DNA of 37,171 nucleotides from a virus. Of the stretch, positions 3,930 through 34,474 are shown in pieces. Location: the IMG/VR virus record IMGVR_UViG_3300031521_000191, positions 1 through 37,171 of that record; one strand, given 5' to 3'. The notes under the pieces were generated by a model, which saw nothing but the letters and a program-made list of their open reading frames with translations, ran no database searches and had not been told where the DNA came from. The stretch's first letter is position 1; every line of letters begins with the position of its first letter. The translations under genes and the position numbers were made by a program.

Positions 3930-4550
3930 TTATTTTGCTCCTTGCTTGTAATAGGCGTTAATGTTATCGTTCACTATTTTGAGGTCGTTCGGCATCGTCC
4001 CTCCTTCGAACATATCTACTGGAGATTTGATACCCGAGCCGTCGGTCTTCACCTTGAATATGAACTCACCAAGGTCTACCTCCGCCTGGAGGACGATATT
4101 CGACCATCCCTCGGGGTTGTTATTTTTGCGAGTAGCCTGGCCAAGCGTCTTGAGTGCAAGCGTGCTTGAGCTGGGGTCTTCAAGGTGTCCTAAGAGGTAG
4201 AAGTTCTGATCTGAGTCCTTGTTGAGTATGGATTCGACCAGATGGTAAAAGTCTTTCGACAGACTGTCGTAGATCTCAAATGGATTCTTCTTACTATCGG
4301 CGCTGAAGACCTCTCGCGTGAACAGGTAATTGACATCATCAATCACGACGATGGGTTTTTTGCTTGCGATGACTACCTTCTTCACCTCGAGCATTGTCTT
4401 GACGGTGACTGGATTGATGTCTGTACGAAATGGCAACTCTTTACCCGTGACCGTGACGTAAGTCACCTCGGTCTTCTTGAGGTTGCGGAGACTGTACGAT
4501 TTGCCGGTTCCGGGGTTGCCGAGTACAAATATTAGACGCGCGTTTGACAT
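3930..4550 (-). CDS. RecA-like/Sak4-like AAA ATPase
   Basis: This 206-residue P-loop ATPase has Walker A GNPGTGKS at 11-18 and Walker B PIVVIDDVNYL at 66-76 with Asp71 and Asp72. Its size and arrangement fit the phage nucleotide-binding family (AAA_24/Sak4-like) that promotes single-strand annealing or strand exchange. Followed by an SSB-like protein and accompanied by YqaJ and VRR-NUC nucleases, it probably forms a phage recombination module. The start is the ATG sharing one base with the upstream TAA. A DNA-packaging or partition ATPase role is less likely. Confidence 0.85.
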   Translation of the reverse strand: MSNARLIFVLGNPGTGKSYSLRNLKKTEVTYVTVTGKELPFRTDINPVTVKTMLEVKKVVIASKKPIVVIDDVNYLFTREVFSADSKKNPFEIYDSLSKDFYHLVESILNKDSDQNFYLLGHLEDPSSSTLALKTLGQATRKNNNPEGWSNIVLQAEVDLGEFIFKVKTDGSGIKSPVDMFEGGTMPNDLKIVNDNINAYYKQGAK

Positions 4551-13480: not shown

Positions 13481-13611
13481 ATTACAGCTACATGTCAAAA
13501 AATGGGTTTGGTGCTGTAATGTCAAAAATGTATTTGCTACAACATGTAAAAACAGAGGTAAATGGGACGCAAAAAAATCACGCGCTGACACCTTTCAATG
13601 ACATTACAGCA
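13481..13611. repeat. Inverted ATTACAGC sites (operator or origin elements)
   Basis: TGCTGTAATGTCA at 13512-13524 has an exact reverse complement at 13599-13611. The 8-nt core ATTACAGC also occurs at 13481-13488. ATGTCAAAAA occurs twice nearby. The set lies directly upstream of the first early promoter, which suggests binding sites for a regulator. Confidence 0.6.
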
Positions 13612-13841
13612 TCACTGTCTACAACCAAATAAAAAAAATATGATATATATCCCCCGTTCGTTAATCACACAGTAGGCACTTTGAATCTGTAAGTGTAATA
13701 TCTTTTTACGCTGATATATGGGCTAATATGTACGCATGTATGTGGGTATTGAATGAGTGCAGTATGATCTTGCACCCCACCCCTGTTGCTTAACGTCGCA
13801 CATTATACAATGCCCGACGTATAGCGCAGGTATGATACATA

Positions 13842-13870
13842 CATATGAATGAGCCACTCATATACATATG
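13842..13870. repeat. Dyad with CATATG flanks
   Basis: ATGAG and CTCAT (13849-13853 and 13857-13861) face each other across CCA, and both sides are bordered by CATATG (13842-13847 and 13865-13870). This looks like a protein-binding dyad. No function is known. Confidence 0.45.
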
Positions 13871-13882
13871 ATGCGCGCGCCG

Positions 13883-13914
13883 ACGACCCATGGCACCCCA
13901 CGACCCACGACCCA
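13883..13914. repeat. Triple ACGACCCA direct repeat
   Basis: ACGACCCA occurs at 13883-13890, 13900-13907 and 13907-13914, the last two sharing a base. Short clustered direct repeats beside a divergent control region recall origin iterons, but three copies are few. Confidence 0.45.
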
Positions 13915-14035
13915 GCGTGGAATGGAGGGGGGGTGGTGTGTTATGACGCAGCGTTACGAGCGTATACGTCCTCCCCCCATTTTCTATAAAAATATAGCGT
14001 TTTCTATCACAACATATTCCATTCCATTGTCAACA

Positions 14036-14044
14036 TGGTATAAT
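14036..14044 (+). promoter_or_regulatory. Extended -10 promoter, first rightward gene
   Basis: TGGTATAAT is a consensus extended -10 box. Transcription should start near 14051, 25 nt before the ATG at 14076, with CTGGAG as ribosome site. Confidence 0.7.
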
Positions 14045-14075
14045 GGATTGGTAAACACTTAACTGGAGAATTATT

Positions 14076-14345
14076 ATGGCAGACGCCCAACACCCTAAAG
14101 CCCACGTTGAAGATCAAGACGATATTGACCTTCCACGAGTTCAACCTATCTCACCTAAGCACGAGGGCATTGACCCATTGACTGAGAGTGACACGATGTA
14201 TCCACGAGACAACACGAAGGCCGACTCTGAGAAGCTTTCTCATAGGGCTGCTCCGGCTCCTGTTGACGAGCCTGAGACGACTGATGAGTTTATTGAGACC
14301 GAGTCTGACGCCGAGCCTACGAAGGGCAAGCGCCGCTTTTTCTAG
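14076..14345 (+). CDS. Hypothetical disordered protein, 89 aa
   Basis: The protein is rich in Asp, Glu, Pro and Thr, has no hydrophobic core, and ends in a basic KGKRRFF tip, so it is probably disordered with a C-terminal binding motif. It has its own promoter (14036-14044) and a CTGGAG box. It opens the rightward arm. A 5-bp ACGCG/CGCGT hairpin follows the stop but lacks a T-run. No family is recognised. Confidence 0.7.
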   Translation: MADAQHPKAHVEDQDDIDLPRVQPISPKHEGIDPLTESDTMYPRDNTKADSEKLSHRAAPAPVDEPETTDEFIETESDAEPTKGKRRFF

Positions 14346-14414
14346 GCAACGCTCGGGACGCGGCACGCGTTCAGAGAATCGAGCTTACTTTATAGAAGCT
14401 TTTGCCGTATGATA

Positions 14415-14513
14415 GAAGAGTGTTGGAGTGGTTTCCAACATGCATATGTCACTGGTCCATTCGGGCGGATCAATCCTTTGGCCTCCTCCTGTCTATCGGG
14501 GGGAGGTTTTATT
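14415..14513 (+). ncRNA. Candidate structured small RNA, about 95 nt
   Basis: A TATGAT box (14408-14413) with TTACTT 17 nt upstream predicts a start near 14420. The transcript would hold a perfect 7-bp hairpin TGTTGGA/TCCAACA (14421-14440), a second GGTCC/GGATC hairpin (14454-14471) and a terminator (14482-14513). The ATGs inside have their GGAG buried in the first stem, and their frame runs through the terminator with no stop. A noncoding RNA is therefore more likely than a gene. No known RNA family is recognised. Confidence 0.5.
14482..14513 (+). terminator. Rho-independent terminator
   Basis: CCTCCTCC (14482-14489) pairs with GGGGGAGG (14499-14506) including one G-T pair, followed by TTTT and ATTA. 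The next promoter begins at 14515. Confidence 0.75.
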
Positions 14514-14514
14514 A

Positions 14515-14523
14515 TGGTATGAT
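14515..14523 (+). promoter_or_regulatory. Extended -10 promoter of 14-codon gene
   Basis: TGGTATGAT follows the preceding terminator at once. The start point should be near 14530. Confidence 0.65.
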
Positions 14524-14554
14524 ACGAGCATCAACCGTAATAGGAGACTTCGCT

Positions 14555-14599
14555 ATGACCGGACCAAAAAAGGGCATGAAGAAAAAGTCAGCTTGCTAG
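14555..14599 (+). CDS. 14-residue cationic peptide MTGPKKGMKKKSAC
   Basis: A TAGGAGA box (14541-14547) lies 7 nt before an ATG that opens 14 codons ending in TAG. The peptide has six lysines and one terminal cysteine. It forms an entire transcription unit of its own, with promoter at 14515-14523 and terminator at 14614-14643. The stop lies within a perfect 12-bp palindrome CTAGTATACTAG (14596-14607). The complete set of signals argues that the peptide, or the small RNA carrying it, is functional. I know of no family for it. Confidence 0.55.
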   Translation: MTGPKKGMKKKSAC

Positions 14600-14613
14600 T
14601 ATACTAGTAGAAG

Positions 14614-14643
14614 ATGCGGCCCTGGCAGTTGGCCGTATTTTTT
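14614..14643 (+). terminator. Rho-independent terminator
   Basis: ATGCGGCC (14614-14621) pairs with GGCCGTAT (14631-14638), loop of 9, then a run of six T. The T-run leads straight into the next promoter. Confidence 0.82.
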
Positions 14644-14644
14644 A

Positions 14645-14653
14645 TGATAGAAT
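14645..14653 (+). promoter_or_regulatory. Extended -10 promoter of 49-codon gene
   Basis: TGATAGAAT begins directly after the T-run of the terminator. Transcription should start near 14660. Confidence 0.6.
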
Positions 14654-14685
14654 AGAGTAGTAAATATAAGCGGGAATCTAATCTA

Positions 14686-14835
14686 ATGGCTACTGTATTT
14701 AGCGGAACCAATATTGAATCCATGAATCGTAAACAGCTTCGTGTGATCGCAAGTAATGTGGGCGTATCAACGCCTGTTATCCACTCGAATTTGACGAGTG
14801 TTGCAACGTTGCTTGCAGCAATCAAAGCGAAGTAG
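14686..14835 (+). CDS. HeH/SAP-like small protein, 49 aa
   Basis: The 49-residue product has the helix-extended-loop-helix pattern of SAP/HeH domains: a first helix MNRKQLRVIASNVGV, a short loop with STPVIHSNLT, and a second helix SVATLLAAIKAK. Such domains bind DNA or RNA in phage and bacterial proteins, usually as parts of larger proteins, whereas here it stands alone. It has its own promoter and terminator (14849-14883). The ribosome site is weak (GGGAA). It may be a small nucleic-acid-binding regulator. Confidence 0.62.
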   Translation: MATVFSGTNIESMNRKQLRVIASNVGVSTPVIHSNLTSVATLLAAIKAK

Positions 14836-14848
14836 TATACTTCATGTC

Positions 14849-14883
14849 AAGAGACTCCGAGCCCACCCCGGCGTCTCTTTTTT
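14849..14883 (+). terminator. Rho-independent terminator
   Basis: AAGAGAC (14849-14855) pairs with GTCTCTT (14873-14879), with an inner CCG/CGG stem, then a run of six T. The next promoter starts two bases later. Confidence 0.82.
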
Positions 14884-14884
14884 A

Positions 14885-14893
14885 TGCTATACT
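14885..14893 (+). promoter_or_regulatory. Extended -10 promoter, leaderless methyltransferase mRNA
   Basis: TGCTATACT is followed by 6 nt and then the ATG of the FkbM gene, so the first transcribed base should be at or next to the A of the start codon. Confidence 0.65.
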
Positions 14894-14899
14894 TTTGAC

Positions 14900-15535
14900 A
14901 TGTATCAAGTAAACACATGGCTCAACCCACTGATTCAGAACTACGAGCGGTACTTTGGCATGACGAAGAAGCCGGTCGTCTGGGAGGTGGGGTCACGAGA
15001 CGGTAAGGACGCGGAGGAGATGGCGAAGCGCATCTTTTCTGGACAACCTGAGTGGTTTTGGACCAATGCGCGCGTCGTTGCGCTCGAGCCAAACCCTGCA
15101 CAGGCCAAGGTTATCCGAGAGAATTACCCCGAAATAGAGGTGTTTGAGATAGCCGCGAGTAACTTCAAGGGATCGGCCCCATTCATGGTCTATCATGGCG
15201 ACGAGGGTGCGGTCGGGTCTAGTTCTTTGCGGCTTGATTGGAAGGAAGACGACCTCGAAGGTCATCAAATCAGTGTCGAGACGGACAAATTGAGCAACCT
15301 CATCGGTGATGAAGAGATCGACATTATGAAAATAGACACCGAGGGTCACTCGATGGAGGTGCTCGAGGGGCTTGGAGACAAACTCACACAGGTCAAGGCG
15401 TATCACATTGAGACGGAGAAGTGGACCGACTCGAACATCAAGGTCAAGGCGTATATGATGAGCCACGGCTATACACTCGTCGATGAGACGGAGCAATATG
15501 GCGGGATGCCCGACCAAGTGTGGGTCAGGGCTTAG
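14900..15535 (+). CDS. FkbM-family SAM-dependent methyltransferase
   Basis: The 211-residue product shows the FkbM pattern: motif I VWEVGSRDG at 27-35, ALEPNPAQ at 61-68, an EIAASNFKG segment near 83, and DIMKIDTEGHSMEVLEGLG in the second half. FkbM enzymes O-methylate sugars or other small acceptors with S-adenosylmethionine. The ATG at 14900 is preferred over an upstream frame because a terminator and then a promoter lie just before it, making the mRNA leaderless. It ends 11 nt inside the convergent beta-propeller gene. Together they suggest modification of a glycan on the virion or host. Confidence 0.9.
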   Translation: MYQVNTWLNPLIQNYERYFGMTKKPVVWEVGSRDGKDAEEMAKRIFSGQPEWFWTNARVVALEPNPAQAKVIRENYPEIEVFEIAASNFKGSAPFMVYHGDEGAVGSSSLRLDWKEDDLEGHQISVETDKLSNLIGDEEIDIMKIDTEGHSMEVLEGLGDKLTQVKAYHIETEKWTDSNIKVKAYMMSHGYTLVDETEQYGGMPDQVWVRA

Positions 15536-16517
15536 AGTTATAGTGGGTGCTCGGCAGCTCGACGCGGCTTGGAGTCTCGTCCCAGCGCCATGCGTACCAA
15601 GTTGTATCTGAATAGGGCGACCATTTGAGTAGGTCGATAGGGACTTTGCAGATGCCGGTCAATTCGTCCTTAACGCCCAGTCCGATGATCAATTCTTCGC
15701 CCTCTTTACCCTTAGACCAGAGGAGTCCCGAGGCAAATTCGATCGTTTCTTTGAGTTGTTCGCGCCATCCCACATTGAAGTGGAAGAACTGGCTGTGCTC
15801 AAGTAGGGTCCCATCTTTGCCCCATTTGAGGGCGATTTGAGCGTAGGTCCGCTCACCAAGGACGCTTACGACGGCGTGTCCTATCGATATGTAGACGTCT
15901 TCGTAGGGGAGAAGTATCGTCCCGTTATGGATGAATAGGTCATTATCTTCGCCGATCACCACACCATCCTTGTAGATTTGAGTCGGCGAGTATATGAAGT
16001 CGAATACGTCATTTGGCTGCTCGGTTGGCGACCAGTTTTTCTCCGCGTGACCGAACGGCCGGCCGAAGTCTTTGAGGAGCGTGAATGTTCCCGCTTCGTG
16101 GTCGATCAGTATCTCTGCGAGGCGCAGTTTGTACTGACCACCTTCGACAGGGATGATGACACCGATGCCGTGCAGCCCATCTTCGCGCCAGAACAGGCGG
16201 ATATCTTCGATTCCCCACTGGAATCCGAGGTATTCTTTCTTCGCTTTGATGAGTTTGAGATCTTTGATCTCGAGTGTGTCTTCGTCGAGAATGCCGACAT
16301 GAAGGAAGTTTTCATACCCGAGTGGGTGGGTAATACCGAACTTCTCGAGGTAGTTGGTGATACACGACCTGATGGAGATGAACACCGTACCGTTAGGATC
16401 GCGCGCAAGTCCAGGGTTATAATGGACCTCGCCGATTTCTGCGTTGATTTCTAGTATCTTGGTTTCGACGTCCAACTTCGTGAGCAGTCCGTCTTTTACT
16501 AATGTGTTTACGCTCAT
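15525..16517 (-). CDS. Five-bladed beta-propeller glycoside-active protein (GH130/GH43-like)
   Basis: This 330-residue protein has the repeated beta-strand pattern of GH130/GH43-like propellers: NPGLARDPNG at 34-43, WGIEDIRLFW at 101-110, and EKNWSPTEQPNDVFDFIYS at 159-177. The GxEDxR and EKNW-P signatures occur in GH130-type mannoside phosphorylases and related putative glycosyl-active proteins. No signal peptide is seen, so it acts in the cell or in virions. It is convergent with the FkbM gene and divergent from 16566, and has its own promoter 8 nt before the ATG. Exact substrate and activity are unknown. Confidence 0.7.
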   Translation of the reverse strand: MSVNTLVKDGLLTKLDVETKILEINAEIGEVHYNPGLARDPNGTVFISIRSCITNYLEKFGITHPLGYENFLHVGILDEDTLEIKDLKLIKAKKEYLGFQWGIEDIRLFWREDGLHGIGVIIPVEGGQYKLRLAEILIDHEAGTFTLLKDFGRPFGHAEKNWSPTEQPNDVFDFIYSPTQIYKDGVVIGEDNDLFIHNGTILLPYEDVYISIGHAVVSVLGERTYAQIALKWGKDGTLLEHSQFFHFNVGWREQLKETIEFASGLLWSKGKEGEELIIGLGVKDELTGICKVPIDLLKWSPYSDTTWYAWRWDETPSRVELPSTHYNSKP

Positions 16518-16518
16518 A

Positions 16519-16527
16519 TGCTACAAT
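16519..16527 (+). promoter_or_regulatory. Extended -10 promoter, rightward
   Basis: TGCTACAAT predicts a start near 16534. The transcript has a 32-nt leader with AAAGGAG before the ATG at 16566. It shares bases 16526-16527 with the opposite promoter. Confidence 0.65.
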
Positions 16528-16534
16528 GATATCA
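16526..16534 (-). promoter_or_regulatory. Extended -10 promoter, leftward
   Basis: On the minus strand TGATATCAT ends 8 nt before the ATG at 16517, giving a leader of at most one or two bases for the propeller gene. It interlocks with the rightward box. Confidence 0.55.
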
Positions 16535-16565
16535 CAAAGTAATTCATCAAAGGAGTGCCCAAACC

Positions 16566-18645: not shown

Positions 18646-18679
18646 CACTCGCAAAACTAGGGTTGATTTTTACTGTTTG

Positions 18680-18688
18680 TGCTAAAAT
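18680..18688 (+). promoter_or_regulatory. Extended -10 promoter of internal virion genes
   Basis: TGCTAAAAT predicts a start at or near 18695. There a 5-codon ATG frame occurs by the same 6-nt spacing as the leaderless genes, but the real gene begins at 18729 with GAAAGAAGAG upstream. Confidence 0.6.
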
Positions 18689-18728
18689 ACAAGTATGAAT
18701 TTAATACTTTGATGAAAGAAGAGTAATT

Positions 18729-19748
18729 ATGGCAATCAATCCAATGCAAGCGGGAAGTATCGTACAGAACGGCATCAATGACGCCGCTTCGAAGCAAGAA
18801 GCCGCAAACTTCATTCTTAAAAACCCAGCCCTCTACGGACAGGGCGATATATCGGCGGCTCAGGCTGTTCTTAGCGGTGGTACGGGCAACACTGTTCTCG
18901 ACACCCCAGACGCGTCTACTACTGTAGCTACTACAGCCCCAACTGGGGGAAAGACATACGCTCCACTTAATACTGGAGCTGTCAATAATACTCAGATAGC
19001 TATAGACCAGCTACCAAGCATTCTTCAGGCCGCTCTTGAGGCAGAACGCCAGAGCCACGATAATACCATCGGCAATTTCAACGCCGCAGAAGGTCAGCAA
19101 CGCGAGACTTACGGTAAATCTACTGATACGAATCAAATGAATTACGATGCTAATTTCATGGACTCAGTTCGAGCCGGGATCAAAGGCTTTGGCGGGTTGC
19201 TTAACATGTTACGTGGTACTGGCGCCGCTGGCGGTACTGCCGAAGACCAGGTGCGAGATGTGGTCGGTGGCGTAACCTCTAACGACATTCGTAATGGTGC
19301 AGATACGCAGCAAGCAAATCAGGGTCAGCTCGATTCCTCTTTCGGAACGTTCCTTACCGACCTGAAGGGCAAGCGTCAAGTTGCTGAAGATACGTTCACG
19401 AATAATAATCGCGCGATTCAACGAGACAACGGTACGCAGATGCAAGACCTGCTCACTAAAATGGCCGGATATTACGGTGATGCTGGTGACACTACTCGTG
19501 CAAATGACTTCATGGGACGCGCTGGAGCTCTAACACCCGCTATTGCAGGTAACACCAAAACGGCCGTGAGCGCATACGACACGACTCCCGTTGCAGTCCA
19601 GGCGCCACAACTTACCGCATTTGCGGCCCCAACTCAGCCTAATGTAGCCTCAGTCCCTCAAGATGGACAAGTTGGTTCAGGCATATTCACTATGAATCGA
19701 AGAAAGACTCAGGACACGACTCCAATAGCGCTACCAGTAGGGGCATAA
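18729..19748 (+). CDS. Internal virion / injected protein, 339 aa
   Basis: This alanine-, glutamine- and glycine-rich protein has a long helical centre and a Pro/Gln-rich end. It lacks enzymatic motifs. Its place directly before the giant internal protein and upstream of tail and portal genes is that of podovirus internal core proteins (T7 gp14/15 position). The ATG has a purine-rich ribosome site, and its mRNA probably starts near 18695. The call rests on position and composition. Confidence 0.62.
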   Translation: MAINPMQAGSIVQNGINDAASKQEAANFILKNPALYGQGDISAAQAVLSGGTGNTVLDTPDASTTVATTAPTGGKTYAPLNTGAVNNTQIAIDQLPSILQAALEAERQSHDNTIGNFNAAEGQQRETYGKSTDTNQMNYDANFMDSVRAGIKGFGGLLNMLRGTGAAGGTAEDQVRDVVGGVTSNDIRNGADTQQANQGQLDSSFGTFLTDLKGKRQVAEDTFTNNNRAIQRDNGTQMQDLLTKMAGYYGDAGDTTRANDFMGRAGALTPAIAGNTKTAVSAYDTTPVAVQAPQLTAFAAPTQPNVASVPQDGQVGSGIFTMNRRKTQDTTPIALPVGA

Positions 19749-19752
19749 CCTA

Positions 19753-22700
19753 ATGGCCTTCTGGGACGACGTTCTGAAGAATATCGGTCAGGCAAGTAAA
19801 AATGTCGGACAATTCTTCGGTGGCGTCCCCCAGAAGAAGAAGTTGCTAGATCAAGTCCAGACGAGTGCTCCTGTTCTTAGGGCGCCTACTATTCAGTCTA
19901 GCCCCCAGATTAGGACACAGTCTCCCACCAACGCGTTCCAACAGTCGAATACACCCGCTCCTACGATATCTAAGACATCGACATTTAATCCTTATCCGAC
20001 GGCTCCTACCATCAAGATAGCGCCTAAGTCACCGGCCGATCAGGAACTTGAGCGATTGACTGCTCAAAAATTAGATGCCGCAAGGAAGAATGCAAACAGT
20101 AGTCAAGATTTTATCGGTACAGTATCGAACTTCTTTACGCACAATAACGAGAAGACGGCGCAAGAGAATGCGCGTATGCAAGCGGTAAATGAGTATAGAG
20201 CTCTACATGGAGATGCCTCGAACCCTACCGTTAATAAGTTCACTGAGAATACTCGCAACCTCACGCGTGATAGCGCCGCTCAGATCAAGACACAGGCAGA
20301 TACCCTCGGAGATATCATCAAGAAGAGCTCGGATATTCCAGTCTTGTCCGACTTCACCACAATGGGATCCGCAGGGGCAAATCTCTTCTATAAGATGACC
20401 GGAGACAAAAGAAGCGAGCAGACCGCTCACGACAACTATACTCGCGCGGTACTTGGTATGAGCGACGAGGAGATATCACGATTACCAGCAGACCAACAGC
20501 AACGCCTCCGTAACCTTCAAACAGGTCTTACCGTGGCATCACCAGCCATGGGTGCACTTGATATAGCTTCATTCGGTGCACTTGGTCCATTAGTGGGCGG
20601 AGTAAAAACATTTGCTACTCAGGGCATGAAGACGCTAGCTACTCAAGCCGGTAAACAGGCCATCATCAAAGGAGCTAAGCAGACGGCAAAGACCATGGGG
20701 CGCAACGCTCTTATCGCAGGTGCGGCAGCTCCGGTAGTATCTGCTCCTATTCAGAATTATGTCAATAATGGTAATGCACTCGACTTCACGGGCGCAGATC
20801 CGTCGAGTATACCTCGTCAGTCTCTCACGGCCGCATTATGGTCCCTATTACTACCGGGAGCATCAAAGCGCCCTGCCGCTGAGGACGTCAATAATGCAAA
20901 GACGGTAGTTACCCGTGACGTTACCGATGCTGCGCGAACTGCCGCCGAAGATGCGACGAAGATTAAAGTACAGCAACCAAGAGATATTCCAGTTACCGAG
21001 GGTCCTTCAGACGTCGTTCAGGTCCCCGTAACAAACAAGACTCCCGTAGGTAAGCCTATCATCGAAGTATCTGGAGACACACCAGGACTCAGCAGGGTCA
21101 CGGCTCCTACTGAGGACCAAGTGGCGTCTAAGATGTTCCAGGCACAGCCCCAGGCACTCCCAGATCGTCGCGTTGATGGGTTTGTACTGGGTAAACTTGA
21201 AGATACCTCACTCTATACTAAGAACGAGATTCAGAGAGAGCGTCAGGCGCTTGACGAGGCCCTTGCAAACAATGAAATCAATAAGACTCAACACAAAGCT
21301 GCGAATAAAGAGCTTGATAGCCTACCTGTCGCAGATGATACCTCTAATGGTCGCAAAATAGACGTTAAGAACGTTAAATCTATACCTATAGAGGACCAGA
21401 GCACCGTACCAACCGATCTTCCAGAGACCCCAGGACAGGTACGCGTTCAGACCGCCGCCGATCCAAACGCTGCTCGTACCGCTGATGTAGCCGCTAAGAT
21501 GCCCGTCCAGCTCCCACAGACCGTTCAGGACGTCCTAGATAACCCAAAGCGCTATAACAAGCGCGAAGTAGCTTCTGCGCGCAACCAGGCTAAATTGGCT
21601 AGAGCAAAGGCGAAAGCTGATGCACAAACTGCTGCTGCTCTGGGTGAGATGAATAGCGCGTCTCCAAACGCTACCTCCGACCAGGGATTCGCTCCAACCG
21701 GTAAGCTTGGAAAATCTGAGAATGGTGGCTCATACCAAAAAGCTAGTCGAAAAGTTGAGATGCAACAGGCGATAAGTGAAACATCTCAAATGTCTCCGGT
21801 TGACGCTATCAAGTCAGCTAGAGAGAATCAGGCCAGTAGCGGAGGCTTCACTCCTCGAGATGTGAGGAATATTCGAGCTATGTTCGAAACTAAGCGAATC
21901 CAGCGCGGCACTCCCGAGTGGACCGAGGCCCGTCAGATTCTCAAAGAGGACGGCACATTGACCGCTCAAGCGCTTGCACTCAGGGGCGGTAGCACGATTC
22001 GCCGTACTGCGAGTTCGAATGAGCTGGTGAGCCAGTTTGAGAGCAAGATATATCGTCTAGCTGAAGATCCGACTAAGATTGATAGTAATATGTTCGACGC
22101 CGTAGATAACGCTACCACAAAGTTCACCGATGCCCGCGACGCTGCCGTCCAAGCTTACAATAGGTTTACAGAGGCTCCAACGTCAGGTAATGCAAGGGCA
22201 TATCATGCTGCTCAGGATGCCGCCGATGCTGCCGATAAGGCCGCCAAGATGACTGAGTTCAAGATTGCGAAGACTATTCTCAAGGGAAACAAAGATGTCA
22301 AACAGATACGAGAATTGCAGAAGATGGCGCAAGAGTCTGATCTCTACCAGATGGACGCCATTGACTCATCAATGCTCTCGGGCACAGGTACATTCTCGAG
22401 GAACTTCGTGAACTCCGCTGTCGGCGGGTCTGAAGAAGGACTATTCGGCGGTATTGCATCACGAGTTGCGAACAAATTGACCGGCGAACATGTTGGTGGT
22501 GGCGCGGGAAAGGGGACTCTTGAGGGCTTTGGCAAGGGAGTATCTAACATTGTAGACGCATCCAAGGCTCGCGCTGCGAATGCCGGATGGAACCCACTTG
22601 AGCACTTCAAGAACTGGTCTACCACCGGGAACCAGCTTGGCGACTCAGTTATCGAGAGTCAGGTTACACACAACGTACTCGATCACTACACCCAATCACT

Positions 22701-24438
22701 CAGAGATCAGGGCTATAAAGGTCGTGAATTAACAGATAGAGCATCGGTGATGGCTCGTCAGGACCCAGATAAGGTTACGAATATGTATGCCGGCTACGCT
22801 CGTGCGGCCGCTGGACTCGGTAGTGGCATCGCTAAGAGTAGCAAGATTGAAACAGTCATTAAGAATGGTATATCTGACTTCATCTCTGGTGGGAATCCTA
22901 ATCAAGTATCTGAATTTGCCTCTAAACTCCTCACTCGTATGACGGTCGGATTCCCTTCGGCAGTAGGTCGTACTATCGTTGAGGGTGGTAAAAGGGCACT
23001 TCTTGGCGCCCCAACAGCCCTCAAACTCTTCACCAAAGAGGCTCGCAACAATCCAGCAGTTCGCGCGCAGCTTATCAAGGAGAGTATCAAGCAATTTGGT
23101 ACAGGCGCTACGGTCGGTGCAATATTCTATAATCTTGGTCAGCAGGGACTTGTGACCGGTGCATACCCAAGCGATCCAGAAGAGCGCGCTCGCTGGCAGC
23201 GTGAGGGCATCACAGAGAACTCAATCAAGATAGGTGAGAACTATTACCAATTACCTGCCTATCTCGGCTCTGCGGCCCTCCCAGCCATCTTTGCGGCGAC
23301 ATTAGGACGTAACAATGGCGATACAATGACTAGTGCGAAGGAAGTAGCGGGTGGCCTAGCAAGCATCATGCCTACAGACCAGATAAGTAACTGGCTCGAC
23401 GTACTTAATGGCCGTACCGACCTAGCTAAATTTGCCAGTCAAACGGGAGCAAGCGTGGTCCGCGCGGTGACACCACTGGGCGCACTACTCAACCAGGTAG
23501 CTAAATCATTCGACCCTACACAGAATGATACCAATAGTGGAACGGCGCTAGAGAACTTTGTGAGTAAGATTCAGAGCGGTATACCTGGAGCATCCAATGC
23601 ACTCCCCGATAAAGTAGACGATACTGGCAACACCCTTATGAATCCAAATCCAGTCGCCCTTGCGTTTGGAGCCTCTTCGACTACCCAAGATAAGGGAGTT
23701 CAGCATACCGATGAGTTGAATACCCAGACGAACAGCACGATTCAAAGTATGGCCGATGCGGGAGCATTTGCAGATCCTAACCTTCAGGCCGTGCTCACAG
23801 ATGACAAGACAAAGCTAATCTACAAGAATATCGTTGATGGCAAACAAGCCACTCCAGATGATATCACGAGTCTTCAAAAGGCGATGGTGAAGGGCGTCAG
23901 TGAGCGGGGCGAAGACACCGCATATCTGGAGAAAGAGCAGTACGATACGAACGTTACGGCGCTTACCGTTAAACGTAATATGATGGCTGCCGATCCTACT
24001 ACAAAGCCAAGTGACCTCAAGAAGATGGATGTTGCTATCAGTCGAGGTAAGGTGTATAGAGATAATACTATTCCATACGATATAATTAAGTCATACGAGG
24101 ACACTAGCGTATCGGAGTGGCGTAGTTTAGGCGACCCACAGAGCGATAGTTATGACCCAGAGATGTACATAAAGATGTGGGCTATAGATGAGCTTATGGC
24201 AAAATCCGGTGTCTCTTACAATAAGACTGACCTATCAAAGCAGAAGTTTAGTGCGAAAAAAGCTGGTTCAGGTAGCGGTAGCGGTTCGCGTAGCTTCAGC
24301 TCAGACTTCGGTACACTCAAGGCTGGTACGGGAGCGCCTAATGTTCAGAAGTACGATACGATAGACGCAAAGAGCGGTAGCGTTCCAGTTATTCAGACAG
24401 TTCGACCAAATATCGTACATAAAATAGGGAGCAGTTAG
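19753..24438 (+). CDS. Giant internal virion / polyvalent protein, 1561 aa
   Basis: This is the largest gene. The first 450 residues are Pro/Gln/Thr-rich with a hydrophobic, glycine-rich segment near residues 260-330. The middle has Ala-rich helical repeats. From about residue 1110 a region with GAIFYNLGQQGLVTGAYP, then QLPAYLGSAALPAIFAATLG, then SKIQSGIPGASNALPDK resembles the LPD38-like membrane part of phage polyvalent proteins. Such proteins are packed in the capsid and injected with DNA, where they may form a trans-envelope channel. I see no lytic transglycosylase motif. Translation starts 4 nt after the preceding stop. Confidence 0.78.
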   Translation: MAFWDDVLKNIGQASKNVGQFFGGVPQKKKLLDQVQTSAPVLRAPTIQSSPQIRTQSPTNAFQQSNTPAPTISKTSTFNPYPTAPTIKIAPKSPADQELERLTAQKLDAARKNANSSQDFIGTVSNFFTHNNEKTAQENARMQAVNEYRALHGDASNPTVNKFTENTRNLTRDSAAQIKTQADTLGDIIKKSSDIPVLSDFTTMGSAGANLFYKMTGDKRSEQTAHDNYTRAVLGMSDEEISRLPADQQQRLRNLQTGLTVASPAMGALDIASFGALGPLVGGVKTFATQGMKTLATQAGKQAIIKGAKQTAKTMGRNALIAGAAAPVVSAPIQNYVNNGNALDFTGADPSSIPRQSLTAALWSLLLPGASKRPAAEDVNNAKTVVTRDVTDAARTAAEDATKIKVQQPRDIPVTEGPSDVVQVPVTNKTPVGKPIIEVSGDTPGLSRVTAPTEDQVASKMFQAQPQALPDRRVDGFVLGKLEDTSLYTKNEIQRERQALDEALANNEINKTQHKAANKELDSLPVADDTSNGRKIDVKNVKSIPIEDQSTVPTDLPETPGQVRVQTAADPNAARTADVAAKMPVQLPQTVQDVLDNPKRYNKREVASARNQAKLARAKAKADAQTAAALGEMNSASPNATSDQGFAPTGKLGKSENGGSYQKASRKVEMQQAISETSQMSPVDAIKSARENQASSGGFTPRDVRNIRAMFETKRIQRGTPEWTEARQILKEDGTLTAQALALRGGSTIRRTASSNELVSQFESKIYRLAEDPTKIDSNMFDAVDNATTKFTDARDAAVQAYNRFTEAPTSGNARAYHAAQDAADAADKAAKMTEFKIAKTILKGNKDVKQIRELQKMAQESDLYQMDAIDSSMLSGTGTFSRNFVNSAVGGSEEGLFGGIASRVANKLTGEHVGGGAGKGTLEGFGKGVSNIVDASKARAANAGWNPLEHFKNWSTTGNQLGDSVIESQVTHNVLDHYTQSLRDQGYKGRELTDRASVMARQDPDKVTNMYAGYARAAAGLGSGIAKSSKIETVIKNGISDFISGGNPNQVSEFASKLLTRMTVGFPSAVGRTIVEGGKRALLGAPTALKLFTKEARNNPAVRAQLIKESIKQFGTGATVGAIFYNLGQQGLVTGAYPSDPEERARWQREGITENSIKIGENYYQLPAYLGSAALPAIFAATLGRNNGDTMTSAKEVAGGLASIMPTDQISNWLDVLNGRTDLAKFASQTGASVVRAVTPLGALLNQVAKSFDPTQNDTNSGTALENFVSKIQSGIPGASNALPDKVDDTGNTLMNPNPVALAFGASSTTQDKGVQHTDELNTQTNSTIQSMADAGAFADPNLQAVLTDDKTKLIYKNIVDGKQATPDDITSLQKAMVKGVSERGEDTAYLEKEQYDTNVTALTVKRNMMAADPTTKPSDLKKMDVAISRGKVYRDNTIPYDIIKSYEDTSVSEWRSLGDPQSDSYDPEMYIKMWAIDELMAKSGVSYNKTDLSKQKFSAKKAGSGSGSGSRSFSSDFGTLKAGTGAPNVQKYDTIDAKSGSVPVIQTVRPNIVHKIGSS

Positions 24439-24452: not shown

Positions 24453-25172
24453 ATGAGCGTCATTGATGATATCACAGAATTAGCACAAGATGTATATTCC
24501 AGCATTAACGGTGCTGAGAACGACGACGAAGACGATGATCTGACATTATTTCAAAATAGTTTCATTCGTTCTTTTAACTTATGGATTCGTGAGTATGAAA
24601 CTGAGGCCTACTGGCAACCGGCGCGCGTCACAGATTACGTTTTAGCTACGATCGCAGATACAACTACTTATTCATTTGACCTTCCAGCTATCTATCGAAC
24701 CCCCATATTTGATCAGAACAAATATCTGAAACTAGTCTTGACCGATGGTACTGTGATTACGAACTTTGCTCTTGTTGACCCCGATCAACGCGTAGTTGAT
24801 CCAGATTATGACCGACCCGACCGAGCTACCTTCATTAGTGCTGGTCGTAACGGTGGTGGCAAGGTTATATTATCTCGAGTACCGAAGGCAGAAGAGGTGG
24901 GAGCAAAAATTATACTTGATGTTGTCAAACGATTCCCTAAGTTGACAATTAGTGACGGAACAGTATTAGACTGGATATATAGCGACCAGGTTGCAACACT
25001 TGGTATTGCCAAGAATCAAACGCTTGCAGATGTCACTAAAGTCACGTTAAGTCCATCGTTCTCGCAGAAATATACGAATGAGCTTAATAAAGCCATGAAC
25101 GCGAACAGTGTCTCAACCGAGCCAGACACTATGCAGAGAGATGATTATAGCGGTATCGGTGGGATCTGGTAA
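24453..25172 (+). CDS. Head-to-tail adaptor / tail tubular A-like protein
   Basis: The 239-residue protein has the layout of T7 gp11-like tail tubular proteins: an N-terminal helix (FIRSFNLWIREYETEAYW), then a strand-rich middle with DYVLATIADTTTYSFDLP and a YRTPIF segment, and a C-terminal helical part. It should sit between portal and nozzle. The next gene begins one base inside its stop (TAATG). The call is by pattern and gene order. Confidence 0.72.
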   Translation: MSVIDDITELAQDVYSSINGAENDDEDDDLTLFQNSFIRSFNLWIREYETEAYWQPARVTDYVLATIADTTTYSFDLPAIYRTPIFDQNKYLKLVLTDGTVITNFALVDPDQRVVDPDYDRPDRATFISAGRNGGGKVILSRVPKAEEVGAKIILDVVKRFPKLTISDGTVLDWIYSDQVATLGIAKNQTLADVTKVTLSPSFSQKYTNELNKAMNANSVSTEPDTMQRDDYSGIGGIW

Positions 25173-27253
25173 TGGCAGTTACAGACGCCGTTAAAGTAAA
25201 AGGAGCACAAATCGTATCAAGCGATATCGTCTCCCTTGATGGCGGTCTGGACGAGCGTGGCGACTACAATATAGCACCGAATGCGATGAGTTATGGCCGC
25301 AATGCGATGGTCAACTCGTCCGGGAACGGTGTAAAGCGTCTCAGTAAAAAGAAGTGGCTGCCTAATGCAGTCGCCTTTAATAGCGAAGTATCGACCGTCT
25401 ACTACAATAATCAGATATATTATTTCATCGCTGATAACGGCAAGGTCCGTTACTGTCAGGATAACTCGACTTCATGGACTGCTTGTGGTGGTTCGAACGT
25501 AGTTACAACTACCGCCGGAACTATCACCACCTTCATGCGCACGAATAACTGGTTACTCGTAATGAATGGCGTTGATGAGATGCGCTATATCGATTTGGCG
25601 ACGTTTAACATGGTTCAGTTCACCTTTGTCGCTAACCCAGTGAGCGTACTCACCGCCGCCGCAACGGGCATCACAACCACAGGCTCCTTCAAGGTATACT
25701 ACGGCATCACGTATAGCTCAGACGGCGGCGGAGAGACGGCTATTGGACCGATACTCAGCCAGACAGTATCTAAAAGCCGCTCAACATGGAAATCTGATGG
25801 TACGGAGTATCTTACCGTCTCATTTAACGATACACCGCCCGCAGGAGCCACAAGCCGTAATTTGTATGCCGCTATCGCTTTGCAAGGTACAACGCCTGTA
25901 GCAAGCGATTTGGCCATGCTAGCGAACAATATTCCAGTAGCTACCGCCAGCTTCGCCGATAATGGCTCTATACCGTTCAATATCTCGTACAATACAGCCC
26001 CAGATACCAACTCCACTCGAGGCATTAAAGCCCTCTCGGGTATTATGGCTGGTGATGTTCCCGTAGTCTACGGTGATCCAGATAACCCATACGACATTAA
26101 TTTCGGTGTGCTCACAGATGCGGGAGTCTCGTTCGGAGCTAACAATGGCGGACAGAGGCTACCACTCCTCAAGGGGACTAATTATTACCCTACCTCTGTC
26201 GTAGGCTTTCGCAATAACCAGAACATTCCTAATCTTCTCGTGCTCTTCTCGAGTACCGAGGGCGTGTCTAAGCAGCGCATCATCAGCCAAAAGACGCTTA
26301 CATACGGTAATGCGACAATTAACTACTGGGGAGCTGACGACCTTAACACAGGCGCCTCATCGGTATATAGCCCCTACGGAGTGGTTGTCTCTCTTGGCGA
26401 GCTTCTTTTCCCATCATCGTTCGGTATCACCTCTATCAAAACAGAGGCTAATCTTCAGAATGTCCTCTCTCCATCGATCGTGAGTAATGAGGTCTCGAAG
26501 ACATATGCTACGATCAAGAACGCTAACTTTAATAAAATCGTTGGTGCTGCGTGGAATAATCTTGTAGCCTTTGCGATACCTAGCCGCGGGTACAACTACA
26601 ATAATCAGATACTTCTTCGAGACATGACGAATAAAGACAAACCAAAGTGGGCTATCTGGGACCTTGCAGTTGATTGGATCGGTGCGATATCTCCTCCTAA
26701 CCAGGCGAGCTTCATGTATATACGCCAGGGTAACGAGTTCTTCAAGCTTCAGGAATCGTATGTGGCAGAAGACGAGAACAGTAACGGAACATCTACTCCA
26801 TACCCAGTTACTATCGAAACGAACCTCAAGGCATTTAGCGCGGGTAAGAACTCCTACTTTGCAGCGACTCAAGCAGTGGTCTATCTGGCTGAATTTATCG
26901 GTACGGTGGTCATTACGGCCTGGTACTACAATAAGAAGGGTAAGCTGAAGCATAAGACCAAGACCTTCACTAATGGATCTAACCAGCGTAACCTGCTCTC
27001 AGGATGGGGCAACCCTCGCTTGACATGGCACAGCGGGAATAGCCGTATGAGAAACTGGTCTACACAACTACCTATATCGGGTGATTCTCCCGCAAGTCAG
27101 AAGAAAACTAAGCGCTGTCCTATCCGACTTCCTAACCCCGTTATCAATGAATATAAGATCACCATATCGAGTAACCTTGAAAATACGTCCTTCGACTTCG
27201 TAGGAAGTAACCTTGAGGGTATAAATATTGGTGTAGTTGGTGATATAGTATAA
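25172..27253 (+). CDS. Tail nozzle / stabilisation protein, 693 aa
   Basis: The N-terminus (LDGGLDERGDYNIAPNAM) and repeated strands with YYNNQIYYF, LLVMNGVDEMRY and similar blades form a beta-propeller as in podovirus tail nozzle (gp12/P22 gp10-type) proteins. It follows the adaptor by a one-base overlap and precedes the portal. It caps the tail and opens it on infection. It is too long for a minor adaptor and has no glycosidase signature. Confidence 0.75.
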   Translation: MAVTDAVKVKGAQIVSSDIVSLDGGLDERGDYNIAPNAMSYGRNAMVNSSGNGVKRLSKKKWLPNAVAFNSEVSTVYYNNQIYYFIADNGKVRYCQDNSTSWTACGGSNVVTTTAGTITTFMRTNNWLLVMNGVDEMRYIDLATFNMVQFTFVANPVSVLTAAATGITTTGSFKVYYGITYSSDGGGETAIGPILSQTVSKSRSTWKSDGTEYLTVSFNDTPPAGATSRNLYAAIALQGTTPVASDLAMLANNIPVATASFADNGSIPFNISYNTAPDTNSTRGIKALSGIMAGDVPVVYGDPDNPYDINFGVLTDAGVSFGANNGGQRLPLLKGTNYYPTSVVGFRNNQNIPNLLVLFSSTEGVSKQRIISQKTLTYGNATINYWGADDLNTGASSVYSPYGVVVSLGELLFPSSFGITSIKTEANLQNVLSPSIVSNEVSKTYATIKNANFNKIVGAAWNNLVAFAIPSRGYNYNNQILLRDMTNKDKPKWAIWDLAVDWIGAISPPNQASFMYIRQGNEFFKLQESYVAEDENSNGTSTPYPVTIETNLKAFSAGKNSYFAATQAVVYLAEFIGTVVITAWYYNKKGKLKHKTKTFTNGSNQRNLLSGWGNPRLTWHSGNSRMRNWSTQLPISGDSPASQKKTKRCPIRLPNPVINEYKITISSNLENTSFDFVGSNLEGINIGVVGDIV
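27241..27249 (+). promoter_or_regulatory. Possible extended -10 promoter before portal gene
   Basis: TGATATAGT lies in the last codons of the nozzle gene, 9 nt before the portal ATG, which has no visible Shine-Dalgarno. It fits a very short leader, but less well than the 6-nt sites. Confidence 0.42.
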
Positions 27254-32273: not shown

Positions 32274-33128
32274 ATGGCATCTAAATATGGTATCAAAACG
32301 TCTTCTGTCCTCGACAAACCACTTGAGGTTGCCTCATACGTGGCTCGTCACTTGGACGCAAACGGACTCGATTGGACCTCAGCCTCAACCGTTAAGCTCT
32401 TGAACTACGACATTAGTGCGGGTTCACTTGGAACTTACGATGAGACTGCTATTTCACAAACCGTAACGCTCGCTGAAACTGGCGATCAGGATATGACGCT
32501 TGCGTATAACAAGTACAAATTCCTTCGCATTCAGGACACGCTCGATCAGGACACTCCTATCGCAAGCCTCGCAAGCAAGTTTGCTCGCTCATGGGTTTAC
32601 GAGAAGTTTATCCCTGACTTCGACGCGTATACGCTTGCTAAGATTGTTGCCGCACGACCTGCCGCAAACAAAATTAGCTGGAATAGCGGTACGGACAATA
32701 TCAAACTCAAGTTCTTCAACACTGTCTCGGCAGTCAAGAAACGCGGTGGCGCTCCAGGCAGCATGGTTGCCTTCATTCCATTCGCCTTCTCTGATAGCCT
32801 CAAGGCTCTTGTTCTTGCATTCGATGGCTCTAACCTCGGTTACGAAACTGGTAAGAACGGCGTCATGGGTCAGCTCGATGGTGTTGTAGTCGTTGAAACA
32901 GACGACACCTACTTCCCAGCTACCTACATCGACGTTGTCGTTGTGGACAAGCGAGCAGTAGTCAAGGCTACTCCTAAGATGGACCCAGCTACCGGCAGCG
33001 GTATGAAGCTCATCAAGGATGTCCCTGGACATGGTGGATCTGAGTTGCAGCTTCGCGCTCGTGGTGATGTCTTCGTCTTTGGTATGAAAGCCAAAGCGAT
33101 CGCTACCCTGGAACGCACAAACTCTTAA
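32274..33128 (+). CDS. Major capsid protein
   Basis: The 284-residue protein has the layout of a small HK97-fold capsid protein: an N-terminal arm, then LAYNKYKFLRIQDTLDQDT, a central helix with RSWVYEKFIPDFDAYTL, and a strand-rich C-terminal domain. The gene is well expressed in appearance (AGGAG box, strong terminator directly after). It lies beyond the scaffold-like gene, as usual for coat proteins. It is shorter than T7 gp10 but close to other HK97-type coats. Confidence 0.8.
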   Translation: MASKYGIKTSSVLDKPLEVASYVARHLDANGLDWTSASTVKLLNYDISAGSLGTYDETAISQTVTLAETGDQDMTLAYNKYKFLRIQDTLDQDTPIASLASKFARSWVYEKFIPDFDAYTLAKIVAARPAANKISWNSGTDNIKLKFFNTVSAVKKRGGAPGSMVAFIPFAFSDSLKALVLAFDGSNLGYETGKNGVMGQLDGVVVVETDDTYFPATYIDVVVVDKRAVVKATPKMDPATGSGMKLIKDVPGHGGSELQLRARGDVFVFGMKAKAIATLERTNS

Positions 33129-33145: not shown

Positions 33146-33171
33146 AAGAGGGTCTTTACAGGCCCTCTTTT
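33146..33171 (+). terminator. Rho-independent terminator after capsid gene
   Basis: AAGAGGGTC (33146-33154) pairs with GGCCCTCTT (33161-33169) over 9 bp with one G-T pair, loop of 6, then TTTT. The fibre promoter starts two bases later. Confidence 0.86.
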
Positions 33172-33172
33172 G

Positions 33173-33181
33173 TGTTACAAT
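33173..33181 (+). promoter_or_regulatory. Extended -10 promoter, leaderless fibre mRNA
   Basis: TGTTACAAT ends 6 nt before the ATG at 33188. The upstream TTG at 33170 lies inside the terminator/promoter and is not the start. Confidence 0.68.
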
Positions 33182-33187
33182 GAATTT

Positions 33188-34474
33188 ATGAAATCAATAG
33201 CTTATATACCAGCAAGCAACGGTTCAGCTAACCCCTCTTTAATGACCGTTCAAACACTTCGTAGCCCAGGTGCGAGCACCATTGTCACAAATACCGTAGC
33301 TGGAGTTCCAACACTTCCAGCTAAATTTTATGCAACGATGGGTGAACCTCATACGTTTACTGATCCAATCACGAGCGAGACAATCACCGTCGTCTCCGAT
33401 GCGACAGCAGTTGACTTTGCCGGACATGTTGACACGGGACAGCTTATTATCGATGCGATAGCTCCCGGGTATGTTGATACGCGCGGTAGCCACGTGGGTG
33501 ATATCGTTATACTTCGTCCGATTACAGGATGGGCCGATAATCTTTATAATATTCTTAGTGAATCCCATAATGATGATGGTACTATCAAAAACGATGCTAT
33601 CACCACTGAGGCTCAATTTACAGATAATGTTGACCCGGTTAAGCGACAGGGCGAAGTGATGTTCGACTTTATAGTACTGGGTGGATGCGTGCTTACGGGT
33701 ACTGGATATGGCTCTACGCTTGCGTGGTCACTGACCGCTGGAGTTGTCTATATTGGTGGCAAAAGACTTACTGTTGCAGCAGCTACGGGTACGGTCACGG
33801 CCTCAAAAGATACCTACTTTGATCTCCTTGACCCAGGTACGGGTACGGTCGCCACATTAGTCAATACTGCCGGCAATATCGTCACAAACAACGCAACATC
33901 ACCAGCGCTCGCGGCCAATAGCGTTCGTCTCGGTATTATTGTATCGGGCGCAACAAATATTCTAAACGTGGGTTCAATCAACCAAGGACAAATAGGGAAA
34001 CTACTCCCTATCGCATCATCAATACCATATATGAAGACGGACTCAATCGGTAATCTCATATGTCCACGAGACCCAAATCGTAAGGTGCTCGGGTACAGGG
34101 AAATCAGGTCAAACGTCATATCGACTACGGCTTCTGGCTCTGGTACGGACATGACTGGGCTTAACCTCAATTACATTACCCCTCTTGGACGAGAGGTTGA
34201 GATAACGGGATTCATCGGGCAGGGAAGCGCATCAATCGCCAACAATGCTGTTGGCATGGAGCTCTACGACGTAACTGCTGGAGCTATAATTGCTAGTTCT
34301 TCAGCGCCGACTAACGCATCGGGAGATGCGGCGTCGGTCGCTCCATGCGTTCCAGTGTCTACTGCGGGCACTAGGAATATCAAGGCCCGCCTATATAGGG
34401 GTTCAAACGCAGCAACGGCTAACGGCAACGCCTCAGCGACCAACCCCAACTACATAATAGTCAAACTAGCATAG
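33188..34474 (+). CDS. Tail fibre / receptor-binding-like protein
   Basis: The 428-residue protein is rich in Thr, Ser, Ala and Gly and beta-structured. The central part (VYIGGKRLTVAAATGTVTAS, then TYFDLLDPGTGTV and ALAANSVRLG) is typical of phage fibre and baseplate-associated proteins. The C-terminal domain looks like a jelly-roll head (SIANNAVGMELYDVTAGA). The gene has its own leaderless promoter directly behind the capsid terminator. It probably binds the host receptor, but no enzymatic site is seen. Confidence 0.75.
   Translation: MKSIAYIPASNGSANPSLMTVQTLRSPGASTIVTNTVAGVPTLPAKFYATMGEPHTFTDPITSETITVVSDATAVDFAGHVDTGQLIIDAIAPGYVDTRGSHVGDIVILRPITGWADNLYNILSESHNDDGTIKNDAITTEAQFTDNVDPVKRQGEVMFDFIVLGGCVLTGTGYGSTLAWSLTAGVVYIGGKRLTVAAATGTVTASKDTYFDLLDPGTGTVATLVNTAGNIVTNNATSPALAANSVRLGIIVSGATNILNVGSINQGQIGKLLPIASSIPYMKTDSIGNLICPRDPNRKVLGYREIRSNVISTTASGSGTDMTGLNLNYITPLGREVEITGFIGQGSASIANNAVGMELYDVTAGAIIASSSAPTNASGDAASVAPCVPVSTAGTRNIKARLYRGSNAATANGNASATNPNYIIVKLA

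Follow-up and report, generated by a model that had tools for sequence, protein, structure and literature searches.

The virus genome analysed here contains joints at which the intrinsic terminator of one gene passes, within a few bases, into the -10 box that precedes the next. We consider it probable (roughly 0.7) that these joints serve as compact punctuation where genes follow one another in the same direction, in a Saccharibacteria-type phage transcribed by the host's RNA polymerase. The intrinsic terminator would end the upstream transcript; the -10 box, which is usually extended and would not need a -35 element, would start the next transcript right after the T-run. At two joints (3 and 4) transcription would begin on or next to the ATG, giving leaderless mRNA, which is also the prediction for many genes in the host group; at the other two (1 and 2) the next transcript would receive a short leader. 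The outcome would be insulated, mostly single-gene units in minimal DNA. The terminator would shield the next promoter from read-through traffic, and a -10-only promoter would take up no upstream room, which would suit a space-limited genome. We infer termination and initiation at the joints, the Saccharibacteria host and insulation as the benefit; the signals, their order and spacing, their excess over chance, their covariation and their conservation are read from the DNA itself. The fused join is real, as judged from the fact that relatives keep it, and it looks more like tight gene packing than a new regulatory system.

The virus genome

The window, meaning the whole stretch of DNA analysed, is the 37,171-bp IMG/VR virus IMGVR_UViG_3300031521_000191. 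Its two ends share 131 bp, with one mismatch; the record is therefore probably complete. Its genes include those for a major capsid protein (phrog_422), a primase (phrog_864), a terminase, a Sak4-like annealing protein and a YqaJ/RecE-like exonuclease. In named phages, relatives of the terminase, among them HTVC010P-like podoviruses, reach at most about 29% identity. PF00940 (T7-type RNA polymerase) was unmatched in the window, but control genomes gave no match either, so this negative is weak. An Rfam search of the whole window returned no family.

A cluster of three joints lies directly to the right of a long divergent non-coding stretch (13600-14030), a possible replication origin. This stretch has patches in common with relatives: GTCGCAC/GTGCGAC, and a C-rich patch followed by TATAAAAA. 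To the right of the cluster, a 330-aa protein (15525-16517) stands beside FkbM-type enzymes in all full-length relatives (L013, L014, L052), with about 65-75% identity in two of them. Pfam and PDB searches with this protein gave no match; its motifs resemble those of five-bladed propeller glycosidases. Its gene is separated from a 181-aa gene by two -10 boxes that overlap head to head (16517-16536; TATGCTACAAT on the + strand, TGTGATATCAT on the - strand).

Joints in the window

The preliminary description had placed three joints in the cluster and reported a recurrence at 33168-33181. All four are present. Boxes begin at 14513, 14643 and 14883, each after a T-run, and at 33171 after the capsid-gene terminator. 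The features concerned are as follows.

14036 to 14044, + strand: extended -10 promoter TGGTATAAT of the 89-aa gene (from the sequence); leader of about 25 nt, Shine-Dalgarno GGAGA at 14065
14076 to 14345, + strand: 89-aa acidic protein with motif PKHEGIDPLT (ORF)
14419 to 14512, + strand: structured RNA segment with three stem-loops, of which the third is terminator 1 (MFE -38, z -3.40)
14480 to 14508, + strand: terminator 1 hairpin, joint 1 (terminator scan, 12 bp; -20.4 kcal/mol)
14513 to 14523, + strand: extended -10 box of joint 1, TATGGTATGAT (from the sequence); predicted start near 14530
14555 to 14599, + strand: candidate 14-aa basic peptide MTGPKKGMKKKSAC (from the sequence); Shine-Dalgarno AGGAG about 8 nt upstream
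14610 to 14641, + strand: terminator 2 hairpin and T-run, joint 2 (-15.1 kcal/mol, z -3.09)
14643 to 14653, + strand: extended -10 box of joint 2, TATGATAGAAT (from the sequence)
14686 to 14835, + strand: 49-aa small helical protein; relatives in L013 and, more distant, L052
14849 to 14879, + strand: terminator 3 hairpin, joint 3 (-12.5 kcal/mol, z -4.07)
14883 to 14893, + strand: extended -10 box of joint 3, TATGCTATACT (from the sequence); its end is 6 nt from ATG
14900 to 15535, + strand: FkbM-type methyltransferase (PF05050, E=1e-11); mRNA predicted leaderless
32274 to 33128, + strand: major capsid protein (phrog_422, E=2.4e-11); joint 4 follows its gene
33146 to 33170, + strand: terminator of joint 4 (-14.9 kcal/mol, z -4.84); the stem covaries in 15 sequences
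33171 to 33181, + strand: extended -10 box of joint 4, TGTGTTACAAT (from the sequence); its end is 6 nt from ATG
33188 to 34474, + strand: 428-aa gene downstream of the capsid gene (ORF, 6-nt gap); mRNA predicted leaderless

Each joint has a stable hairpin with an immediate T-run, as expected of an intrinsic terminator; z ranges from -3.1 to -4.8 against shuffles for joints 1 to 4. All four have TGn immediately before TANNNT. One consensus base is missing from each -10 box at joints 1 to 3, and a consensus scan for -35/-10 hexamer pairs found none at the three joints of the cluster. The fused element is about 45-60 bp long. These four joints are the window terminators that can be placed between co-directional genes; other real-looking terminators lie at convergent gene ends (30923, 36413, 36434).

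For a joint to be counted, hairpin dG had to be <= -12, and the distance between the T-run start and the TG of the -10 box <= 9 nt. With a home-made terminator finder, whose absolute counts vary with thresholds, the window contains 4 joints against a mean of 0.128 in 1000 dinucleotide shuffles. Two or more joints occurred in 10 of these 1000 whole-window shuffles and three in none. When 14340-14902 was shuffled alone (n=2000), the mean was 0.007 joints and two were reached in 0/2000. A simple terminator scan listed only joint 1 of the three in the cluster; joints 2 and 3 were recognised by folding.

Another terminator-like/-10 joint precedes a 339-aa gene in the window (18678-18730) and in two relatives (G001 at 24388, G004 at 23879). 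Its hairpin is strong in both relatives and weak in the window; the leader TAATACTTTGAT is common to the window and G001.

Predicted transcription units and their products

The cluster was originally read as a chain of five units. Separate small transcription units are well supported, as the joints exceed chance and one is conserved by covariation in 15 sequences; the count is revised. The region 14036-15535 more likely holds four predicted units: the 89-aa mRNA, the 14-aa unit, the 49-aa unit and the FkbM gene. Four are preferred to five because the structured RNA has no convincing promoter of its own and no terminator separates it from the 89-aa gene. The candidate promoter TATGATAGAAG at 14409 is unconvincing, as it is without the final T of the -10 box; hence 14036-14512 is read as a single transcript, the 89-aa mRNA, with the structured RNA probably at its 3' end. 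This RNA matches no Rfam family.

In each of the three full-length relatives (L013, L014, L052), the homologue of the 89-aa gene likewise has TGnTATAAT with a leader in front of it. A P-x-H-x-G-x-D-P-L motif is common to the 89-aa protein and small acidic proteins of relatives (four or three relatives; the count varies). This protein has no Pfam match, and a search with its motif gained no further relative. A back-translation search of IMG/VR with the 14-aa peptide found no match. The HeH/SAP label given to the 49-aa protein could not be confirmed: there is no Pfam match at 0.05, and AlphaFold gives three helices at low confidence (pLDDT 67). It may at best be called SAP/HeH-like. The FkbM assignment is supported by a PF05050 match of 45.7 bits vs a cut-off of 22.7. 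Its start at 14900 agrees with the N-termini of relatives; among named phages it has no match.

Predicted leaderless starts

The distance from the end of the -10 box to the ATG is 6 nt both at the FkbM gene (14900) and at the 33188 gene. The usual distance from -10 box to start puts the first mRNA base on or beside the A of the ATG; the mRNAs from joints 3 and 4 are therefore predicted to be leaderless. Both genes also have TANNNT about 12 bp (first T) before the start codon, the arrangement used to recognise leaderless genes. The 14-aa and 49-aa units lack this arrangement and have predicted leaders of about 25 nt; of these short leaders at joints 1 and 2, one has a Shine-Dalgarno site.

Conservation in relatives

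Fifteen distinct sequences show the joint downstream of the capsid gene: the window, viral relatives, MAG contig L058 and G004. The stem of this joint is paired in 15/15, while the 5' arms differ in 15/15; inner pairs alternate among G-C, C-G, A-T and T-A. Pairs were counted from the loop outward, since a MAFFT alignment shifted stems by one column. The -10 box ends 6 nt from the ATG in 12 of the 15 and 7 nt in two. The T-run is retained in 14, and in several relatives the -10 box is without a correctly placed TGn. Changed arms with kept pairing and kept spacing are as expected from selection on terminator and promoter both.

One relative (L026) has a hairpin after the capsid gene that runs directly into TATGCTAAAAT with no T-run; this joint may therefore no longer terminate. 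The retention of such a hairpin, and the interruption of the joint 1 T-run by A after four T, would fit leaky hairpins that mainly protect or define mRNA 3' ends, in a region transcribed mostly by read-through as a single operon that internal promoters boost. This is quite improbable, as T-runs are present in 14/15 of the capsid-downstream joints and a leaderless start at this very position is better explained by a new 5' end.

The preliminary description had suggested looking for the same joint order in related phages. The joint before the methyltransferase recurs in two of them, as a terminator followed by TGTGCTATATT-TTAGAT-ATG in G002 and by TATGCT-TGATTC-ATG in G003; the FkbM-like genes behind it differ. 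This is the only joint of the cluster that the two phages keep; no relative was found to have joint 1 or joint 2. In the stretch matching the 14036-14902 cluster, G001 has no terminators. Conservation is thinner for the cluster than for the capsid-downstream joint. Relative L013 has a different arrangement at 4060-4105, where an extended -10 box is followed by a hairpin and a T-run reaching the ATG of a 75-aa gene; this is attenuator-like.

Five related phage genomes (172 kb) contain 9 copies of the full element (hairpin, T-run, -10 box, 5-8 nt, ATG), whereas shuffled sets average 0.225; in these phages the gap from -10 box to ATG peaks at 6 nt. The joint is placed between the capsid gene and the structural genes that follow, ahead of terminase in one relative and ahead of FkbM-type methyltransferases. 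Since the same joint stands before such diverse gene types, it is best regarded as general punctuation. This bears on the original proposal of separately dosed regulators or RNAs, which is unsupported. A special chain of that kind would fit the tiny 14-aa and 49-aa units, their place beside a divergent control region, and the 94-nt segment before joint 1, which is more structured than shuffles. It is very unlikely, given the use of the same joint by relatives for structural, terminase and methyltransferase genes, a structured segment with no convincing promoter, and a 14-aa peptide with no relatives.

Spread beyond this phage group

IMG/VR was scanned for CTTTTTTATGnTATAAT followed by ATG within 2-16 nt. 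At least 80 loci were found, some near-identical. Among the matches listed, a hairpin of <= -9 kcal/mol is present at 50/81 joint sites vs 53/452 control CTTTTTT sites in the same loci; as some loci are near-identical, 50/81 is not a count of independent cases. The ATG spacing at the joint sites listed peaks at 6-8 nt. Two cultured carriers, Lactococcus phages 949 and P1048, are among the matches; in 949 (NC_015263) the site is at an endolysin/hypothetical junction within 24994-25694, and in P1048 it falls within 19581-20181. Many other viral contigs carry the joint, and it is therefore not peculiar to this phage; as judged by this pattern it is present in many unrelated phages.

Termination and initiation might also be coupled. 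RNA polymerase might stay on the DNA after release and be captured at once by the adjoining -10 box, so that the output of each unit would feed the next. Recycling termination with nearby re-initiation has been shown in vitro in E. coli (PMC6978380, PMC6978322, PMC11347151), and the termination site and the next promoter here are separated by no more than about 10 bp. However, one-dimensional diffusion spans hundreds of bp, so fusion is unnecessary for coupling; restarts were usually antisense in Harden et al. (PMC6978322); and nothing in the sequence tells coupling from simple packing. Coupling is unlikely. It is likewise unlikely that the joint forms a distinct, widespread phage module whose termination step passes the same polymerase straight on to the following -10 box, so that leaderless single-gene units form relays with linked outputs and separate transcripts.

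Probable host and its start signals

A contig assigned to a Candidatus Saccharibacteria MAG carries a terminase with 68% identity. The virus probably infects these tiny Saccharibacteria; the basis is one binned contig, for which binning errors are possible, together with shared signals. A capsid alignment showed no relative in species genomes.

In 31 genomes around the MAG, TGnTAnAAT stands 6 nt before ATG 479 times vs 55 for the reversed pattern; at a 12-nt gap the counts are 116 vs 59. On a 770-kb Saccharibacteria contig (L066-L104), the gap before open frames peaks sharply at 6-8 nt. These patterns suggest that leaderless transcription is common in Saccharibacteria. A hairpin accompanies 6/20 of the strict-pattern host matches, many of which are T-runs alone; the pattern count therefore overstates how often the host has the complete fused element. 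That element occurs 5 times in the 770-kb host contig (some doubtful) vs 9 times in 172 kb of phage, making the phages about eight times denser.

Comparison with known systems

Terminators, extended -10 promoters, leaderless starts and terminator-promoter proximity are each already known. What the joint adds is the fusion of known parts into one conserved element, in which the end signal of a gene and the start signal of the following gene are combined. In the literature searched, with subscription journals mostly outside its scope, no description was found of the fused leaderless module or of leaderless starts in Saccharibacteria; the fused, often leaderless, module appears to be undescribed. 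It offers a natural test bed for polymerase recycling at an adjoining promoter, for which cultured carriers such as Lactococcus phage 949 are available. The suggested leaderless, -10-proximal starts in Saccharibacteria and their phages should make gene calling more accurate in these lineages, most of which are uncultured.

Leaderless bacterial genes have a TANNNT box about 12 bp before the start (Zheng 2011, PMC3160421), and such genes are described in Deinococcus-Thermus (Zhong 2025, PMC12340547). Joints 3 and 4 share the fixed short distance between -10 box and ATG. What sets the joint apart from these published cases is the fusion of its box to the preceding gene's terminator, the extended -10 TGn that the box usually has, and its occurrence in phages and Saccharibacteria. 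The joint resembles an extended -10 promoter of the sigma-70 type in having TGn before TANNNT, with no -35 match reported by the scan; it differs in that its spacer and upstream region are the T-run and stem of a terminator. With intrinsic (Rho-independent) terminators it shares the G+C hairpin and T-run, but the T-run enters a promoter instead of an intergenic gap. As in recycling termination, a promoter beside the terminator could receive the terminated polymerase, re-initiation here being hypothetical. Studies of that process treat distances up to about 1000 bp (PMC6978380, PMC6978322, PMC11347151), whereas in the joint, known here from sequence, the distance is within about 10 bp.
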